Assembly: GCA_022821585.1 (NCBI GenBank)
Contig: JAJEDI010000032.1
Span: 1 to 64,000, forward strand
Source of the DNA: Caldilineaceae bacterium
GTDB taxonomy: Bacteria; Chloroflexota; Anaerolineae; Caldilineales; Caldilineaceae
Direction of reading: 5' to 3'
Length of the DNA: 64,000 bases
This document shows, one piece after another, positions 10,536 through 58,890 of this stretch. Positions within the stretch are counted from its first letter, which is position 1. Each line of letters starts with the position of its first letter. The position numbers were made by a program, and so were the translations under genes. Under the pieces are notes generated by a model, which was not told the DNA's origin, did not search any database, and was given only the letters and a program-made list of their open reading frames with translations.

Positions 10536-11150
10536 CTATGTGCTTGCTTCGGAGAACAGGTCACCAACGTCGACCTTGAATCCTTCCAGAAGTACAGACA
10601 GTGCCGTCTCGCCGGCGACGAACTCGCCGTGAAGCGCGTATTTCCGTCCCTGTAGAGTTAGTACGGTGATGGAGGCTTCGGTGGGATCGACGATCCAGTA
10701 TTCAGGGATCCCGGCCTGCGCGTATTCGCGGCGTTTGGTTACTTTGTCGCGTTCGGGGTCATTGGGGCTGACGATTTCCATGACGAGATCGGCGCCCTGC
10801 CAGAACTGTTCACCCAGTCTGTCTGCGTGTTCGGCGGCCATGAAGACGAGATCCGGCTCTCTGAACTTCCCTTGCCCGAGTTGAATTCGCAGGGGGGCAA
10901 ACATGACGACACCCAGGCCGCGCTCTTCGACAAATCCCGAGAGCAAGCGGTAGAGGAGTGCAACGAGTCTTTGGTGCGAGAAGGTAGGCAAGGGGAGAAC
11001 CTCCATCCGCCCGTGGGAAAACTCGGTGAGGTGGTTGGTATCGAGCGCCAGGTACTCTTCTTCGCTCCATTGGCCCTGGGCGGGAAAGAGCTGGGCGATC
11101 GCCCAAGTCAGTTCGGCTGTTTTGTCCGGTGTTGCCGTGGACAGGACCAT
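10536..11150 (-). CDS. Uma2-family (DUF820) PD-(D/E)XK nuclease-like protein
   Basis: REPDLVFMAAEH...ADLVMEIVSPNDPERDKVTKRREYAQAGIPEYWIVDP. Confidence 0.88.
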   Translation of the reverse strand: MVLSTATPDKTAELTWAIAQLFPAQGQWSEEEYLALDTNHLTEFSHGRMEVLPLPTFSHQRLVALLYRLLSGFVEERGLGVVMFAPLRIQLGQGKFREPDLVFMAAEHADRLGEQFWQGADLVMEIVSPNDPERDKVTKRREYAQAGIPEYWIVDPTEASITVLTLQGRKYALHGEFVAGETALSVLLEGFKVDVGDLFSEAST

Positions 11151-11163
11151 TGCCTTCTTTCTT

Positions 11164-11775
11164 TCAATCTACTTCTGAGAACACGGCGGCCACTTCCACC
11201 GTGAATCGATCCAGCAGTACGGAGGTCGCGGTCTCGCCTGAGACGAACTCGCCGTGAAGCGCGTATTCCTTTCCCTGTAAGGTGAGGACGGAGATGGAGG
11301 CACCGGCGGGATCGACGATCCAGTATTCGGGGATGCCGGCCTGCGCGTATTCGCGGCGTTTGGTTACTTTGTCGCGTTCGGGGTCATTGGGGCTGACGAT
11401 TTCCATGACGAGATCGGCGCCCTGCCAGAACTTATCAGAGCGACGGTCATCATTCTCGGTGCGCATGAACAGGATATCGGGCTCTCTGAATTTACCCGGC
11501 CAGAGTTGGACGCGCATGGGAGCCAGCAGAACAGTACCAAGTTGTCCTTCACGAACAAAGTTACGCAGGAGTTCAAACAGGGCAATAATCAGTAGCTGAT
11601 GCGACTGGGTTGGCGTTGGCAGGACTTCCAACTGACCGTGGGAGAGTTCGATCAGATGATTGGTATCCAGCGCCAGGTATTCTTCCTCGCTCCAGTGGCC
11701 CTGGGCAGGGAAGAGTCGGGCGATCTCCCAGGTCAGTTCGGGCGCTTCTGCGGGTTTCTTCGTCGGGCGGGCCAT
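11164..11775 (-). CDS. Uma2-family (DUF820) protein, tandem paralog
   Basis: near-identical core to 10536-11150 (ADLVMEIVSPNDPERDKVTKRREYAQAGIPEYWIVDP). Confidence 0.88.
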   Translation of the reverse strand: MARPTKKPAEAPELTWEIARLFPAQGHWSEEEYLALDTNHLIELSHGQLEVLPTPTQSHQLLIIALFELLRNFVREGQLGTVLLAPMRVQLWPGKFREPDILFMRTENDDRRSDKFWQGADLVMEIVSPNDPERDKVTKRREYAQAGIPEYWIVDPAGASISVLTLQGKEYALHGEFVSGETATSVLLDRFTVEVAAVFSEVD

Positions 11776-12860: not shown

Positions 12861-12979
12861 TGGGGATGGCTCGCTTTGGATTGCGGTCTTGCCGGCCTGC
12901 GCCGGTGCGCAGGACCGGCTGCGATAGCTGATTATACCCGATCTGTGGACGGGCGGGCGAACGCGTAGAGGAGATGGGG

Positions 12980-13330
12980 TACATCCCAGAATTGGGGTAG
13001 GAACAGTCTGGCGGGGAACCCAAGCCAGCGGTGGCTGGATTCTCATACCTGATCTTGGAGAGACGGAGGGCAGCCGCCAAGACTGGCCTTTCCGGGCGGT
13101 CGGTTGACTTGAGGTGCAGGGCTAGCACAAGGCCGGCACCTACGGGGATTTGATGGGACTGGAGGGACCTGGCTGGAAGAAACTCGCTCGATTGGGCACC
13201 AGTCACGAATACCGGCACACGGTCGCCGTGGCTTTTTTTTGGCGGGGGCGTTGGGGGGGCGGAGCCCCCGCACAAGGGAGGCCGCTTGCGGCCGACCGCC
13301 CGGAAATGCAGGGGTTAAGGGCCGGGAGCC
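12980..13330 (+). repeat. MITE-like dispersed repeat, copy 2 (left end present, right end not recognised)
   Basis: TACATCCCAGAATTGG left terminus; GGAACAGTCTGGCGGGGAA...CCAGCGGTGGCTGGA; GCACAAGGCCGGCACCTACGGGG; ...GCGGAGCCCCCGCACAAGGGAGGCCGCTTGCGGCCGACCGCC. Confidence 0.7.
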
Positions 13331-28637: not shown

Positions 28638-28982
28638 TGCATTCCAGACTTGGGGTGGGAGCGGGCAGGCACAAGGCCGGCACCTACGGGGATCTGATGG
28701 GACTGGTGGGACGTGGTCTGGCTTGACACCTTCGATTAGGCACCTGTTACGAATAGAGACACCAGGTCGGCGAGGCATGTTGTAGGAGAGGGGGCGTTGC
28801 GGGGGCGGAGCCCCCGCACAAGGGAGGGCCGAATAGGCCCGACCGCCCAGAACTGCAGGGGCTGGGGGCCAGGGGTTAGGGTTCAGAAGAGTCGATTTCC
28901 TTGGTTCAGAGTTGATGGCGGACTGGAAACGGCTCTGTTTCTTACGGAGGTGAAGGAGAGTTCGCGCCCATTTTGGGATGCA
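28638..28982 (+). repeat. MITE-like dispersed repeat, copy 3 (most complete, both termini)
   Basis: left TGCATTCCAGACTTGG, right CCATTTTGGGATGCA; internal hairpins GCGGGGGC-GGA-GCCCCCGC and GGGCC-GAATA-GGCCC. Confidence 0.78.
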
Positions 28983-41584: not shown

Positions 41585-41935
41585 TCCAATTTGGGGCGAG
41601 AAGGGTCAGGTGTGAAGGCGGCACTTGGCGGCGGTCCTGGGCAGGCACAAGGCCTGCCCCTACGGGGACTTGATAGAACTGACGGGACGTGGTCTGGCGA
41701 AACACTTTCGATTGGACACCTGTCGCGAATGTCGGCACCAGGTCGACGAGGCATGTTGTTGAAGGGGGGCGTTGCGGGGGGAGTCCCCCCGCACAAGGGA
41801 GGCCGCTTGCGGCCGACCGCACAACTGCAGTGGTCAGTGGGGGCGCTTTCCTTGCCTTGGCGTGGATGCGGACGGGAAACGGCACTGGTGCTTCCCGAGG
41901 GACAAGAGAATTCACCTCCATTCTGGGATACATGC
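41585..41935 (+). repeat. MITE-like dispersed repeat, copy 4
   Basis: GGGCAGGCACAAGGCCTGCCCCTACGGGG; GCGGGGGG-AGT-CCCCCCGC; GGCCGC-TT-GCGGCC; right end CCATTCTGGGATACA. Confidence 0.72.
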
Positions 41936-50185: not shown

Positions 50186-51241
50186 ATGTTTGTGGACATG
50201 CAGCCTGCGGACTATCAGCCGGTAGTGCCTTCAGACCTAAACTACGGAATTGGCCTGGTTGGATGCGGCATCCTCGTCGAGGGCTTGGAGATGCCCGCCT
50301 ACAAGAAGGCCGGCTACCGCGTCGTCGCCTGCTGCGACAAAATCGAGGAGAGGGCACACATCGTGGCAGCCAGTTTCGGCAGTCCACTTGTTACAACGGA
50401 CTTGGAGGTACTGTTATCGCATCCTGAGGTGCAGATTGTTGACCTGGCGGTACATGCTCACCAGCGCCTGCCCTTGGTCGAGCAGATCGCCGCGGCAGGG
50501 AAGCACATTTTTTCGCAGAAACCTCTGGCTCCCAGCTTGCGGGAGGCCGAGCGTATGGTGGGGATTTGCCGTAACGCCGGGGTAACGCTGATGGTCAATC
50601 AACAGGCGCGTTGGGCGCCCCCACATCGGGCACTGAAGCTCCTGATTGACCGAGGTGTGTTGGGGCATGTCTACGCCATTACCCACTTTCATCGGGCTTA
50701 TCAGGACTATGGCTGGTATGCGGAGCGGGAGGACTTCAACATCGTTGATTATGGGATCCACTATGTTGATTTGAGCCGCTACTTCAGCGGTTACACACCG
50801 CGGCGGGTGAAAGCGACAACTGCGATGGTGCCCGGCCAGAACGCGGTCTCGCCGATGATCTATACGATCCTCTTTGAGTACGAGCCTTCGGCCCAGGTGA
50901 CGACGACCCTGCACTTTAACAATATCATTTCAGCACACGCTCTCCATGATCAAGTGTGGTTCGTGGATGGAACGCGGGGGAGCGCACTGTTGAGCGATCC
51001 CGCGGGAGCGGCCAGGTTGAGCGTGTCGTTCAAGGATTCTCCTGAACGGGTACAGAGTTTCGATAGCGCTGGCACGTGGGAGTTTGAAGGGTTTGCCGGT
51101 TCGATGGGCGAGATGTTAATGGCAGTGGAGGAGGGGCGGGAGCCTGAGAGTTCGGGTCGGGAGCATCTGGAGAATTTACGAGTGGCGTTCGCGGCGGTGG
51201 AGAGTGCCAGGTCGGGTGAGAGTGTGGAGTTGAGGAGGTAG
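50186..51241 (+). CDS. Gfo/Idh/MocA-family oxidoreductase, paralog 2
   Basis: same length (351 aa) and collinear with 39572-40627 throughout. Confidence 0.9.
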   Translation: MFVDMQPADYQPVVPSDLNYGIGLVGCGILVEGLEMPAYKKAGYRVVACCDKIEERAHIVAASFGSPLVTTDLEVLLSHPEVQIVDLAVHAHQRLPLVEQIAAAGKHIFSQKPLAPSLREAERMVGICRNAGVTLMVNQQARWAPPHRALKLLIDRGVLGHVYAITHFHRAYQDYGWYAEREDFNIVDYGIHYVDLSRYFSGYTPRRVKATTAMVPGQNAVSPMIYTILFEYEPSAQVTTTLHFNNIISAHALHDQVWFVDGTRGSALLSDPAGAARLSVSFKDSPERVQSFDSAGTWEFEGFAGSMGEMLMAVEEGREPESSGREHLENLRVAFAAVESARSGESVELRR

Positions 51242-51316: not shown

Positions 51317-51889
51317 TCATCCAGATGCGCGGTCCTCGAGTTCGGCGTGCAGTCGATCAAGCCCAGACAGCAGAACCTGGAAACTTTTCGAATTGTTTCT
51401 TTCTCGCGTAAGAAGACCAGCCATCGCTTTGGCGCCGCTGACTTTCCGGAAGCCAGGGATGAGCCTCCTTAAGGCCTCGGAGGGCTGCTGCACTGCATCC
51501 GGATCGCGGAAACCCGCCCTGCGACCGATGCCTCGCAGTCTCTCGTTGTCGAAGGCTTCCGCCAGAGCGTCAGGTTCACCCAGATACCAGGCTTCCAATT
51601 GCTGGCACACGATTCTCACGAGCGTGTCAGCCCGGCCTGCTTGACGGCAAGATTGCAGAAGCCGCCTCTTCAGACGCAGACAGTCGCCGCCATCGTTGTC
51701 TCGCAGGATGACAAATCGAACGCCTGGCTCGCGCCATGCTCGCAGCTTGCGCGGGATGCTCCTATCCAGGTCGCTCTTCCCTTCGTGCACCAGGTATTCG
51801 AATACCATATTGGGGTATAGGCGGGGAAGCAGTCCAACGAGCAGGTCGCGCATGGATGCCTCTTCCAGCAAGAATACGACTCTGTTCAC
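51317..51889 (-). CDS. DUF4276-like (Toprim-like) protein
   Basis: FLLEEASMRDLL, FVILRDNDGGDC, QLEAWYLGEPDALAEAF. Confidence 0.75.
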   Translation of the reverse strand: MNRVVFLLEEASMRDLLVGLLPRLYPNMVFEYLVHEGKSDLDRSIPRKLRAWREPGVRFVILRDNDGGDCLRLKRRLLQSCRQAGRADTLVRIVCQQLEAWYLGEPDALAEAFDNERLRGIGRRAGFRDPDAVQQPSEALRRLIPGFRKVSGAKAMAGLLTRERNNSKSFQVLLSGLDRLHAELEDRASG

Positions 51890-53109
51890 TCGAGCCGGGC
51901 ACCATCGCGATCTTCTTGCCTCCAGTGCAGACCGGGCAAGTCGAATACTCCTTGTCTCCAGAGCGCGCCCGGCAGGTCGCCTTCGTGGACCAGGTTGCGC
52001 AGCAGCTCGCTCTCCGACGCCCGGCGGACCTTAGTGAAACCGTCCTCCTTGACCAGCCAGCGTATTTCGTCGAGTTCGGCGCCGTTCAGAAAGTCGGGGG
52101 AATGGGTAGACACGAAAACCTGGCCGCCGCGCTGGGCGTAGTCGTGAAACTCTTCTGCAAGCTCCCGCATCAGAGCGGGATAGAGTTGATTCTCCGGTTC
52201 TTCGACCGCCAGCAGAGGGTGTGGATTGGGGTCGTAGAGAAGGACGAGATAGGCAAACATCTTGATGGTCCCGTCCGATACATACGGGGCGATGAAGGGA
52301 TCCTGGAAGTTGTCATCCTGGAACCGAAGAACCAGCCTTCCGTCCTCGGTGGGCTTTGCTTCCACGTCACTCACGCCGGGGACGCGCTGGCGCATGGCCT
52401 GGAGTACTCTATTGAAATGCCGGGGATGGTTTTCATAGAGGTATTTCGCTACCAAAGCGACGTTTTCGCCGCGCGTGGATAGATGCTCGGCGTAACCGAA
52501 GTCTGCGCTTGGCCGCGCGTCGGCAATTTGGAAGTCGGAGATATGCCAATTCTCGATAAATTTGCGGAACTCCGAAACAATCGGAAACTCCTGGAGTTGG
52601 CCAAAGCTCTTGATTGCCAATGTGCTGGGGTCATCAAGCTTGAACTTCCTCTTTTTCTGGTCTGCGTCTTTCATAGCGGACACACCGTACTCGGACTCGT
52701 TGGTGATCACTTCGCCCTCTCCGCGGCGATTGTCGACGAAGCGCCACCCCCAGCGGCCGCCCTGCCCTTTGCGATAACTCAGCGCCTCGTGCTCCACCTC
52801 TGCACGATCTCGGGCCTGAGTTATTTTCAACTGGTATGTCGCCAGCCGACCGCCGCTCTCGCGAAACTGCAAGGTGATCTCCAGCGGCCCCGCCTCTCCG
52901 CGGGTGACCAGTTCACGATATCCACCGCGTTGCGCCACCGCTGCGGCGACGTTTTGCGTCAGGGCATCTTTTAGAAAAGTGAACACATCGAACAGCGACG
53001 ACTTGCCCGAGCCGTTTGGACCCACAACTATTGTCATGCGCGTCAGTTTATCGAGCGTGATGTCGCGAAGGCAGCGGAAGTTCCTGACGGCAATGCTTTC
53101 GATCTGCAT
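51886..53109 (-). CDS. AAA ATPase, SMC/RecF/OLD-like
   Basis: IESIAVRNFRCLRDITLDKLTRMTIVVGPNGSGKSSLFDVF, LLAVEEPENQLYPALMRELAEEF, FVSTHSPDFLNG; start 53109. Confidence 0.88.
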   Translation of the reverse strand: MQIESIAVRNFRCLRDITLDKLTRMTIVVGPNGSGKSSLFDVFTFLKDALTQNVAAAVAQRGGYRELVTRGEAGPLEITLQFRESGGRLATYQLKITQARDRAEVEHEALSYRKGQGGRWGWRFVDNRRGEGEVITNESEYGVSAMKDADQKKRKFKLDDPSTLAIKSFGQLQEFPIVSEFRKFIENWHISDFQIADARPSADFGYAEHLSTRGENVALVAKYLYENHPRHFNRVLQAMRQRVPGVSDVEAKPTEDGRLVLRFQDDNFQDPFIAPYVSDGTIKMFAYLVLLYDPNPHPLLAVEEPENQLYPALMRELAEEFHDYAQRGGQVFVSTHSPDFLNGAELDEIRWLVKEDGFTKVRRASESELLRNLVHEGDLPGALWRQGVFDLPGLHWRQEDRDGARLE

Positions 53110-53147
53110 GGGGCCTGGCAATTGAAATCGTCCTCGGATTCTCAAGT

Positions 53148-53729
53148 TCAGGGCCGGGAGAGAAATATCTCGTCCAGAAGGGCAGAGAATCCCTCCAACA
53201 CCGGAGAAGTCAGAGTCTGCCCCTCGGTGTAGGTAGCTCTTTCAGCGTAGCCGTCCGCGCCCAACAGTAGAACGGTGATGGTCCTGGCTTCAGGGTCCAC
53301 CAACCAGTACTCACGCACCCCATATTCGGCATACAGTTGGCGTTTGCGTGTCTCGTCGCGCTCGGCGGTGGAGTCGGAGCGGATCTCGACGAGCAGGTCG
53401 GGGGCGCCCTGGATGTTGGCAGATGTGACTATGCCGGCCCGAACTGAGGAGATGAACATCAGGTCGGGTTGGACTACGTGGGTTTCAGAAAGGACAACGT
53501 CGGTGGGGGCAAAGTAAACAACTCCCAGTTTCCTCTCTTCAACAAATGTGTCTAGCCGCGTCGCTAGTTTCATGGCTACGTGCTGATGGGCTATACCCGG
53601 GGCGGGTGGAATGAACAGTTCTCCATCCAGAAGTTCGTAGCGTTCATCTTCGGAGGTCTTCAGGTAGTCCTCGTATGTGAGTTTGGTCGTTATTGGACTG
53701 CCGTTAGGACCAAGATTAGTTCTTATCAT
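53148..53729 (-). CDS. Uma2-family nuclease-like protein
   Basis: KLTYEDYLKTSEDERYELLDGELFIPPAPG..., PDLLVEIRSDSTAERDETRKRQLYAEYGVREYWLVDP. Confidence 0.88.
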   Translation of the reverse strand: MIRTNLGPNGSPITTKLTYEDYLKTSEDERYELLDGELFIPPAPGIAHQHVAMKLATRLDTFVEERKLGVVYFAPTDVVLSETHVVQPDLMFISSVRAGIVTSANIQGAPDLLVEIRSDSTAERDETRKRQLYAEYGVREYWLVDPEARTITVLLLGADGYAERATYTEGQTLTSPVLEGFSALLDEIFLSRP

Positions 53730-53873
53730 CTTTGCTTTCCAGTCCTGACTAAAGTGACCGGCCCCAGCCATCCTTTGAACACATGTTCTCGTACTTGACC
53801 GGCATTGTCAAATGAATGTTTCCTAAGGGATACAGTTAATTCTCTCACGAGTCTAGGCGCGTCTCATAAGTGG

Positions 53874-54195
53874 TGCATCCTGGATTTGAGGCGGGAACAG
53901 TCTGGCGGGGAAGTCGTGCCAGCGGTGGCTGGAGTTGTTTACCAGCTTTTGGAGTGACGCAGGGCAGGAGGCAGGGCGAGGAGAGTGCGGAGAGGATTGA
54001 GTGCCACAGTTTGGGTTGGGTGAGATTGGATTGGGGACTGGCGGGGCGTGGTCTGGCGAAGCACTTTCGACTGGGCACCTGTTACGAATATCGACACCGG
54101 GTCGGCGAGGCATGTTGTTGGCCGGGGGCGTTGCGGGGGCGGAGCCCCCGCACAAGGGAGGGCCGAATAGGCCCGACCGCCCAAAACTGCAGTGG
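53874..54195 (+). repeat. MITE-like dispersed repeat, copy 5
   Basis: left TGCATCCTGGATTTG; GGAACAGTCTGGCGGGGAAG...CCAGCGGTGGCTGGA; GCGGGGGC-GGA-GCCCCCGC; GGGCC-GAATA-GGCCC. Confidence 0.75.
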
Positions 54196-54228
54196 TTAGT
54201 GGTCAGTGGTCAGAGGGTGGGGAGGGGC

Positions 54229-55125
54229 TCAGCCTTTGAGACCGGTGAGGACGACGCCTTCGATGATGAAGCGCTGGACGGCGATGAAGAGGGCGAGGAT
54301 GGGGACGATGGCGAGGCTGGCGCCGGCCATGATGACGCCGTACTGGTTCCAGAATTCGCCGACGAAGGTTGCGAGGCCGACGGTGATGACGTATTTGTCG
54401 TGGCTGGAGATGACGACGAGAGGCCAGAGGAAGTCGTTCCAGTTCCACATGAAGTAGAAGGCGATGAGGGTGAAGAGGGCGGCGCGGGAGAGCGGGATGA
54501 TGATGCGGTGGAAGATGTACCACTCGCCAGCGCCGTCGATACGGGCGGCGTCGATCAGCTCTGTGGGGATGGTGTACATGAACTGGCGGAACATGAACAT
54601 GGCGTAGATTGTGAAGATTTCGGGGACGATGAGGGCGGTATAGGTATCGGCCCAGCCGACCTGGACGGTCATGAGGTAGAGGGGGATGAGATAGACTTCG
54701 AAGGGGATTATCCAGGTGCTGAGGAGGATGTAGAAGATGATGTCGCGGCCGCGGAAGACGAATTTGCCGAAGATGTAGCCGAGGAGCGCGCTGGTGTAGA
54801 TGTTGAAAATGGTCTTGATGACGCTTATGAAGGTTGTATTCCAATAGAGGCGGCCCATGTTGGCGCGGTCGAAGACGTCGATGTAGTTGGAAATCGTGGG
54901 GTTGATGGGGAAGAGACGGGGCGGGAAGGAGACGGTCTCGGCCTGGGGTTTGAAGGAGGTGCTGATCATCCAGATGAAGGGGACGACCATCAGAATGGCG
55001 CCGGCGCCCAGGACAAGGTAGTTGATCAACAGGCCGCGGCGCAGGCGCTGGAAGTCGGTTGCGCCGCGGTTGAGAGCCCGCGTATCGACCTGGCTGGGTA
55101 TACCAACAAAGTCCTGGTTAGCCAT
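54229..55125 (-). CDS. carbohydrate ABC transporter permease (MalG-like)
   Basis: IDAARIDGAGEWYIFHRIIIPLSRAALFTL. Confidence 0.9.
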   Translation of the reverse strand: MANQDFVGIPSQVDTRALNRGATDFQRLRRGLLINYLVLGAGAILMVVPFIWMISTSFKPQAETVSFPPRLFPINPTISNYIDVFDRANMGRLYWNTTFISVIKTIFNIYTSALLGYIFGKFVFRGRDIIFYILLSTWIIPFEVYLIPLYLMTVQVGWADTYTALIVPEIFTIYAMFMFRQFMYTIPTELIDAARIDGAGEWYIFHRIIIPLSRAALFTLIAFYFMWNWNDFLWPLVVISSHDKYVITVGLATFVGEFWNQYGVIMAGASLAIVPILALFIAVQRFIIEGVVLTGLKG

Positions 55126-58105: not shown

Positions 58106-58705
58106 TCAGGTGGTCATTTCCTCTGAATCAAGGTCTGGAAACAGGTCGTTCAAATTGATAAATAGGCCATGCAGCATGGGAGAATTCAGAGTCTGGCATA
58201 AAGTGTAGGTAGCTGCCTCCTCGTAGCCATTCTCGCCCAGCAATAGAACGGAGATGGTTGCGTCTTCAGGGTCGACCAGCCAGTACTCCTCAACACCACA
58301 GTCTGCATAGAGCTGACGTTTGAATGACTCATCGCGCTCGGCGGTGGAATCGGAGCGAATTTCGACGATGAGGTCGGGTGCGCCCTGGATGTTGGCGGGG
58401 GTGATGATGTCGACCCGCTCGGATGATATGAACAGCAGGTCGGGTTGGACGACGTCGGTGCGGGAGAGTACGACGTCAGTGGGGGCGAAGAAGAGATGGC
58501 CGAGTCCGCCCTCTCTGATAAAGCGAGCCATCCGCCATCCTAACTCGGCCTGAACTGACTGATGGGCTGTATTCGGAGCAGGCGGCACTATCAGAGCTCC
58601 GTCCAGAAGTTCGTAGCGTTCATCATCGGGGGTTTTCAGGTAGTCCTCGTAAGTGAGTTTGGTCGTTGCAGGACTGTTTTGAGAAACAGGTTCCGCTCTC
58701 AACAT
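58106..58705 (-). CDS. Uma2-family nuclease-like protein (paralog of 53148-53729)
   Basis: KLTYEDYLKTPDDERYELLDGALIVPPAPN..., PDLIVEIRSDSTAERDESFKRQLYADCGVEEYWLVDP. Confidence 0.88.
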   Translation of the reverse strand: MLRAEPVSQNSPATTKLTYEDYLKTPDDERYELLDGALIVPPAPNTAHQSVQAELGWRMARFIREGGLGHLFFAPTDVVLSRTDVVQPDLLFISSERVDIITPANIQGAPDLIVEIRSDSTAERDESFKRQLYADCGVEEYWLVDPEDATISVLLLGENGYEEAATYTLCQTLNSPMLHGLFINLNDLFPDLDSEEMTT

Positions 58706-58890
58706 TGTTGCCCTCCTGTCAGAACAACTTTGACCGGCCAGAGCCGTCATCTGAACACATGTTCTCGTAGTTGCCCGACTTTGTCAAACGGGTTTTGCCA
58801 GGGAAAACAGCTGATCTGCTCGCGGTGATGCGCAGTTGCTTCAGGACAATGCCTGAAGCAAGACATGCGGTACTACGAATCACCGGCCAC

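Follow-up and report, generated by a model that had tools for sequence, protein, structure and literature searches.

The ATPase gene and the adjoining DUF4276 gene described here probably form a two-gene defence module, in which an OLD/PARIS-like ATPase and its Toprim nuclease are split over two proteins, while the Uma2 gene in front of them is a lineage-specific passenger or accessory. We assign a probability of roughly 0.7 to this reading. It is based on the match of both proteins to the models of the catalogued defence candidate HEC-01, the predicted Toprim fold of the small protein with its conserved acidic residues, the recurrent pairing of the two genes, the location of some relatives in Hma loci or, on plasmid pSYSM, among phosphorothioation genes, and the patchy presence of the pair. 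The genes are located in a stretch of 64,000 nucleotides from a Caldilineaceae bacterium (contig JAJEDI010000032.1), which is referred to as the window.

Gene organization

An earlier note on this DNA had described three genes on one strand, in the order Uma2, ATPase, and DUF4276. All three are open at these positions on the minus strand (Table 1), and the motifs that had been read in their products (GPNGSGKS, LLAVEEPE, STHSP, LLEE, and RDNDGGD) were found in the window proteins. A further Uma2 copy claimed at 58106 was likewise confirmed (58106–58750). The small gene, by contrast, had wrongly been given an ATG start and an ATGA overlap. The junction of the two genes reads CTC GAG TGA, and the small gene begins inside it with GTG AAC AGA; the 4-bp overlap is therefore GTGA.

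Table 1. Positions of the pair, the preceding Uma2 gene, and the key motifs in the window
Feature	Position	Strand	Remarks
DUF4276 protein, HEC-01 small subunit	51317..51889	-	190 aa; GTG start; predicted OLD-type Toprim nuclease
HEC-01 ABC-type (OLD/RecF/Rad50-like) ATPase	51886..53109	-	407 aa; possible true start TTG 53121
Uma2 gene (PF05685; PADLOC PDC-S03), predicted PD-(D/E)XK nuclease	53148..53729	-	Lineage-specific neighbour
RDNDGGDC, DUF4276 residues 63–70, Toprim DxD (D64-N-D66)	51680..51703	-	Conservation in relatives
First acidic residues of the Toprim domain, E9-E10, end of strand 1	51860..51865	-	Conservation; strand E3–8 in the model
ATPase motifs: Walker A GPNGSGKS, signature SDGT, Walker B LLAVEEPE, H-loop STHSP	within 51886..53109	-	

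Comparison with orthologues suggests that translation of the ATPase may start four codons further upstream. An ATG is found 12 bases (4 codons) before the proposed start in three orthologues (L071–L073), at the position where the window has TTG (53121), and a Shine-Dalgarno-like stretch precedes it (GAGGA in the window, GGAGGA-type in the orthologues). If TTG 53121 is the start, the gap between Uma2 and the ATPase shrinks to about 26 bp; the 38 bp given earlier hold for the annotated starts. The Uma2 gene has an alternative ATG at 53771.

All three genes are under purifying selection, as dN/dS values lie between 0.10 and 0.49. In comparisons with three orthologous loci and with an additional copy located elsewhere, dN/dS was 0.10–0.14 for the ATPase and 0.12–0.22 for DUF4276. 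Uma2 gave 0.15–0.49 in the same four comparisons and is under weaker constraint than the pair. The neighbourhood of the three genes in the window is metabolic, with sugar ABC transporters, an oxidoreductase, and glycosidases; it is not a defence island.

Both proteins of the pair match a catalogued defence candidate

The small protein was assigned to DUF4276 (PF14103; E 1e-11, 45.8 bits vs. a cut-off of 30.2), the ATPase to AAA_21 (PF13304; E 6e-34) with a match to AAA_15 as well, and the product of the first gene to Uma2 (PF05685; E 3e-38). Defence models were searched in PADLOC-DB 2.0.0. The small protein matched HEC-01A (PDLC04143; E 2.3e-56) and the ATPase matched HEC-01B (PDLC04144; E 1.4e-159, residues 1–390 of 407), and the two Uma2 proteins of 53148–53729 and 58106–58750 both matched PDC-S03. 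Because both proteins of the pair match the HEC-01 models, the pair is a known entry of the defence catalogues, where HEC-01 is listed as a candidate. The earlier proposal of an uncharacterized defence module holds with regard to the mechanism, but not with regard to the catalogues.

In PADLOC-DB 2.0.0, HEC stands for Hma-embedded candidate and HEC-01 for Hma-embedded candidate 01; Hma denotes a putative system of helicase, methylase, and ATPase (PMC8565338). A paper of 2026 (PMC12988326) states antiviral activity for several HECs, HEC-06 among them, with reference to Payne et al. 2024. No statement on the mechanism of HEC-01 or on phage protection was found in the literature covered, to which the source preprint (10.1101/2024.01.29.577857) did not belong. 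A search for HEC-01 by title and abstract returned unrelated papers only, and DUF4276 gave no match in the literature searched. The genes of the window are adjacent and both products match the models, as in HEC-01, some relatives of which lie between HmaB- and HmaC-like genes; the window copy differs in being located outside any Hma system and in having a Uma2 gene in front. Judged by the model matches, the window pair is a probable member of HEC-01, and the mechanistic proposal of a split ATPase-Toprim module is what is added here.

The DUF4276 protein as a predicted Toprim nuclease

Searches of the DUF4276 protein against PDB sequences with phmmer and with a profile gave no meaningful match, and no OLD protein was found, so that a comparison of folds was needed. 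The AlphaFold2 model, created from an alignment of 78 DUF4276 proteins, reached a pLDDT of 96.8 and a pTM of 0.91. It consists of alternating strands and helices in the order b-a-b-a-b-a-b, with the DxD motif at the end of strand 3. The best three PDB matches obtained with Foldseek were the C-terminal (Toprim) regions of OLD proteins (6nk8 and 6njv; E 2e-4 to 1e-3, probability 1.00, TM 0.49–0.57). The next match was a designed protein (E 0.014), and the PARIS structure was a weak match at rank 47.

Multiple alignment of the relatives revealed E9, D64, and E99 as invariant (78/78 each), followed by E10 (77/78) and D66 (75/78). Position 97 is occupied by E in 75 of the 78 relatives and by Q in the window protein. 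In the OLD protein of Burkholderia, the ligands of metal A are E400, D455, and D457, and those of metal B are E404, T506, and E508 (PMC7049728). Assigned by motif order rather than by superposition, E9, D64, and D66 fit the ligands of metal A, and E99 fits E508 of metal B. The suggestion that the small protein is Toprim-like is thus supported at the level of prediction by the topology of the model, strong PDB matches exclusively to OLD proteins, and the conservation of E9, D64, D66, and E99. We predict that the DUF4276 protein represents a Toprim domain of the OLD type, in which the metal-binding acids are conserved. No match to it was found in phage records at E 1e-5, so that nothing indicates the presence of a close relative in sequenced phages.

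The ATPase and comparison with known systems

In an alignment of 73 ATPases, Walker A, the SDGT signature, the EEPE Walker B motif, and the H-loop histidine are all kept. The structural model of the window ATPase (pLDDT 87.9) matched PtuA of Septu best (E 7e-15), and matches to Rad50 heads, SMC heads, and OLD 6p74 were obtained as well. The former label SMC/RecF-like is fair with regard to these fold matches, although OLD-type ABC ATPase is more exact (naming according to PMC12839542). The model places the protein among ABC ATPases of the OLD/Septu/Rad50 kind. It also scored against the AriA models (1e-32) and AbiLi (6e-28) of PADLOC-DB 2.0.0. In one relative (L127:1048-2982), the ATPase frame comprises 644 aa and is extended N-terminally by about 245 residues, which may represent a fused upstream domain.

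PARIS (AriA ATPase and AriB Toprim; class 4 OLD) also consists of an ABC ATPase gene and a separate Toprim nuclease gene. However, the small protein of the window is a 190-aa DUF4276 protein whose structure resembles the Toprim of OLD class 2 more than the PARIS entry in the PDB, and no AriB model was among its PADLOC-DB 2.0.0 matches up to E 1. Membership in PARIS was ruled out, as the second gene is not AriB. OLD proteins of class 1/2 and GajA of Gabija share the Toprim fold with its E...DxD...E acids and the ABC ATPase partner, but combine both domains in one protein, whereas the window pair is made up of two genes. No GajB helicase adjoins the pair in the window; this and the separate ATPase and Toprim genes ruled out Gabija. 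Despite the match of the whole ATPase to PtuA, Septu was excluded as well, since its nuclease is an HNH protein (PtuB) and the partner in the window is a Toprim protein (DUF4276). The resemblance to AbiL is confined to the score with AbiLi, whereas the small protein has no AbiLii match in PADLOC-DB 2.0.0.

Distribution and neighbourhood of the pair

A search of species genomes with the small protein provided the 80 best relatives, from many phyla, in which recurrence of the pair was assessed. ATPase sequence was found directly upstream of DUF4276 in 78 of them. In a phylum sample, 30 of 35 DUF4276 loci had such an ATPase within about 1.5 kb in the stretch examined. Among immediate neighbours on the same strand, HmaB was upstream in 8/50 and HmaC downstream in 8/46 of the loci scanned. 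Six loci from several phyla (L080, L081, L086, L090, L093, and L119) have HmaB-like and HmaC-like genes on both sides, a count that was made by sequence cluster and not by identification of every single member, and an HmaB-like or HmaC-like gene on either side was found in 11 loci. Many relatives of the pair have housekeeping genes as neighbours.

The laboratory strain Synechocystis PCC 6803 carries a HEC-01 pair on plasmid pSYSM (25994–27735; L217) and provides an experimentally accessible example. This pair is preceded by cysteine desulfurase and toxin-antitoxin genes, and downstream of it follow a small DUF433 gene, an annotated phosphorothioation-associated methyltransferase gene, and an HNH gene. 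Some relatives of the pair are thus located within or next to defence loci (Hma, phosphorothioation genes of pSYSM), in support of this part of the earlier interpretation. On the conjugative plasmid pGLE121P3, a more distant ATPase and a following small gene are found among transfer genes.

A Uma2 gene linked to the pair in one lineage

Uma2 lies directly upstream of the pair in 4 of the 80 relatives (L070–L073), all of them Caldilineaceae, and in none of the other 76, as counted with a profile for which the Uma2 proteins of the window served as seed. A Pfam scan of 50 upstream neighbours detected Uma2 in L070 and L073 only, because L071 and L072 had dropped from the set through ORF choice. 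For HEC-01 as a whole, Uma2 is clearly not a general component. The reservation about Uma2 that the earlier note had voiced was justified, yet the linkage is real within the genus. Among 46 genomes of the order, close copies of the pair were found in ten genomes of the window's genus, eight of them with Uma2 upstream. The two copies without Uma2 are those of G406 (L213) and of G416, the latter at a contig end.

The loci L070–L072 occupy the same chromosomal site as the window, whereas L073 lies at an unrelated site, where the homology to the window essentially comprises two tandem Uma2 genes and the ATPase-DUF4276 pair. As homologous DNA extends from Uma2 to DUF4276 at two unrelated sites, the unit moved as one piece. 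Uma2 and the pair are thus together in 8/10 close copies and at two unrelated sites, but separate in G408 (L207), which has kept Uma2 at 92% identity and lost the pair, and in G406. The window's genome contains 24 Uma2 matches, only one of which (53184–53672) adjoins the pair. The window gene clearly belongs to the Uma2 family (PF05685; PDC-S03), which PMC2701414 describes as probably a solo gene that is frequently found in paralogue cassettes; here, in contrast, it adjoins HEC-01 in one lineage. A universal third gene was ruled out by the 4/80 count and by the separation in G408 and G406. Uma2 is best read as a passenger or accessory nuclease that is specific to Caldilineaceae, rather than as a core subunit.

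The corresponding site in sister genomes

The site in the window is bounded by the oxidoreductase (50186–51241) and a permease (54229–55125). At this site, G408 retains Uma2 and roughly 27 bases from the beginning of the ATPase gene, while the rest of the pair is absent; this remnant points to deletion of the pair. In G403, G415, and G417 (L208–L210), a TcmP-like and a DUF5131 gene are present instead. The two genes of L208 match PDC-M41A/B; in L209 and L210 they read almost identically. No module occupies this site in G406 and G409, which also lack this copy of the oxidoreductase. Elsewhere, the Uma2-Uma2-ATPase-DUF4276 unit of L073 adjoins a PDC-M41 pair, the ATPase of L214 lies near a PDC-M41B gene, and the pair of L213 is about 0.6 kb from a SoFic gene. 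In G414, a stop is found at ATPase codon 4 and DUF4276 is broken, and in G411 the ATPase is frameshifted; some of these lesions may be assembly errors.

Within one genus, the HEC-01 pair shows the behaviour of an accessory module. The site may be a small exchange site for defence candidates, at which HEC-01 with Uma2 alternates with PDC-M41. The more far-reaching reading that HEC-01 of Caldilineaceae took up Uma2 as a functional third component and that the oxidoreductase/sugar-transporter site exchanges HEC-01 plus Uma2 against PDC-M41 (TcmP and DUF5131) appears unlikely.

Proposed mode of action and alternative explanations

In the proposed mechanism, the ABC ATPase would assemble with the small Toprim nuclease and keep it inactive until an infection signal changes the state of the ATPase. 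Triggers in related systems are a phage protein, nucleotide depletion, or DNA structure. The released Toprim protein would then cut nucleic acid (DNA or RNA) with two metal ions, and cleavage would stop either phage growth or the infected cell. OLD and GajA target DNA. AriB of PARIS cuts tRNA (PMC12409363). HEC-01, a widespread defence candidate, would thereby gain a testable mechanism with E9, D64, D66, and E99 as candidate catalytic residues.

The metabolic neighbourhood in the window, the housekeeping neighbours of many relatives, Q97, and the rank of the PARIS structure count against a defence module. The pair might instead be a housekeeping ATPase-nuclease of DNA repair or the cell cycle, comparable to Cran1, an archaeal member of the OLD family that acts in the cell cycle and not in defence (PMC12796447). 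Such a non-defence OLD class has been published, the ATPase fold is close to Rad50 and SMC heads as well as to defence proteins, and the neighbours are often housekeeping genes. A housekeeping role is nevertheless ill-suited to a pair that is patchily present, replaced at its site by PDC-M41, apparently pseudogenized in some genomes, and completely lost from others within one genus, and that occurs on plasmids and is embedded in Hma loci of several phyla. We consider it quite unlikely.

Within a defence function, Uma2 could be a working second nuclease or regulator that is transcribed together with the ATPase and required for full activity in Caldilineaceae, which would make the module a true three-gene system. 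The position of Uma2 immediately in front of the ATPase in eight of the ten close copies within the genus, where the gap is short and a Shine-Dalgarno-like stretch is conserved, the joint movement to two unrelated sites (window/L070–L072 and L073), and purifying selection on Uma2 are consistent with this. Its absence from the other 76 loci, its survival in G408 after loss of the pair, the pair without it in G406, the many Uma2 genes elsewhere in the genome, and its weaker constraint make such a system rather improbable. It is very unlikely that the module, intact in sequence, is no longer active in the lineage of the window and on its way to loss. Q97 in place of a nearly invariant E, the broken genes of G414 and G411, and the deletion in G408 suggest decay in the genus. 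However, isolated stops or frameshifts in a draft genome can result from errors of sequencing, and the genes in the window have their full length, retain every other motif, and show low dN/dS values for the pair (0.10–0.22). The two-gene module with Uma2 as passenger or accessory remains the preferred reading.

Further observations in the window and its genome

The genome of the window contains another, divergent HEC-01 pair (G000:C89, L064), located a few kb from a type IIG restriction-modification gene and a GmrSD-type gene. Tandem Uma2 genes at 10536–11150 and 11164–11775 of the window are members of the 24-match family. Directly upstream of the Uma2 gene preceding the pair, a dispersed repeat of about 165–250 bp was found (53950–54200), with other copies in the window at 28699–28879, 41678–41840, 12978–13317, and 26–121. 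In the genome, 40 copies with 80–93% identity were scored out of 265 first-look candidates, and the repeat is possibly MITE-like or REP-like.
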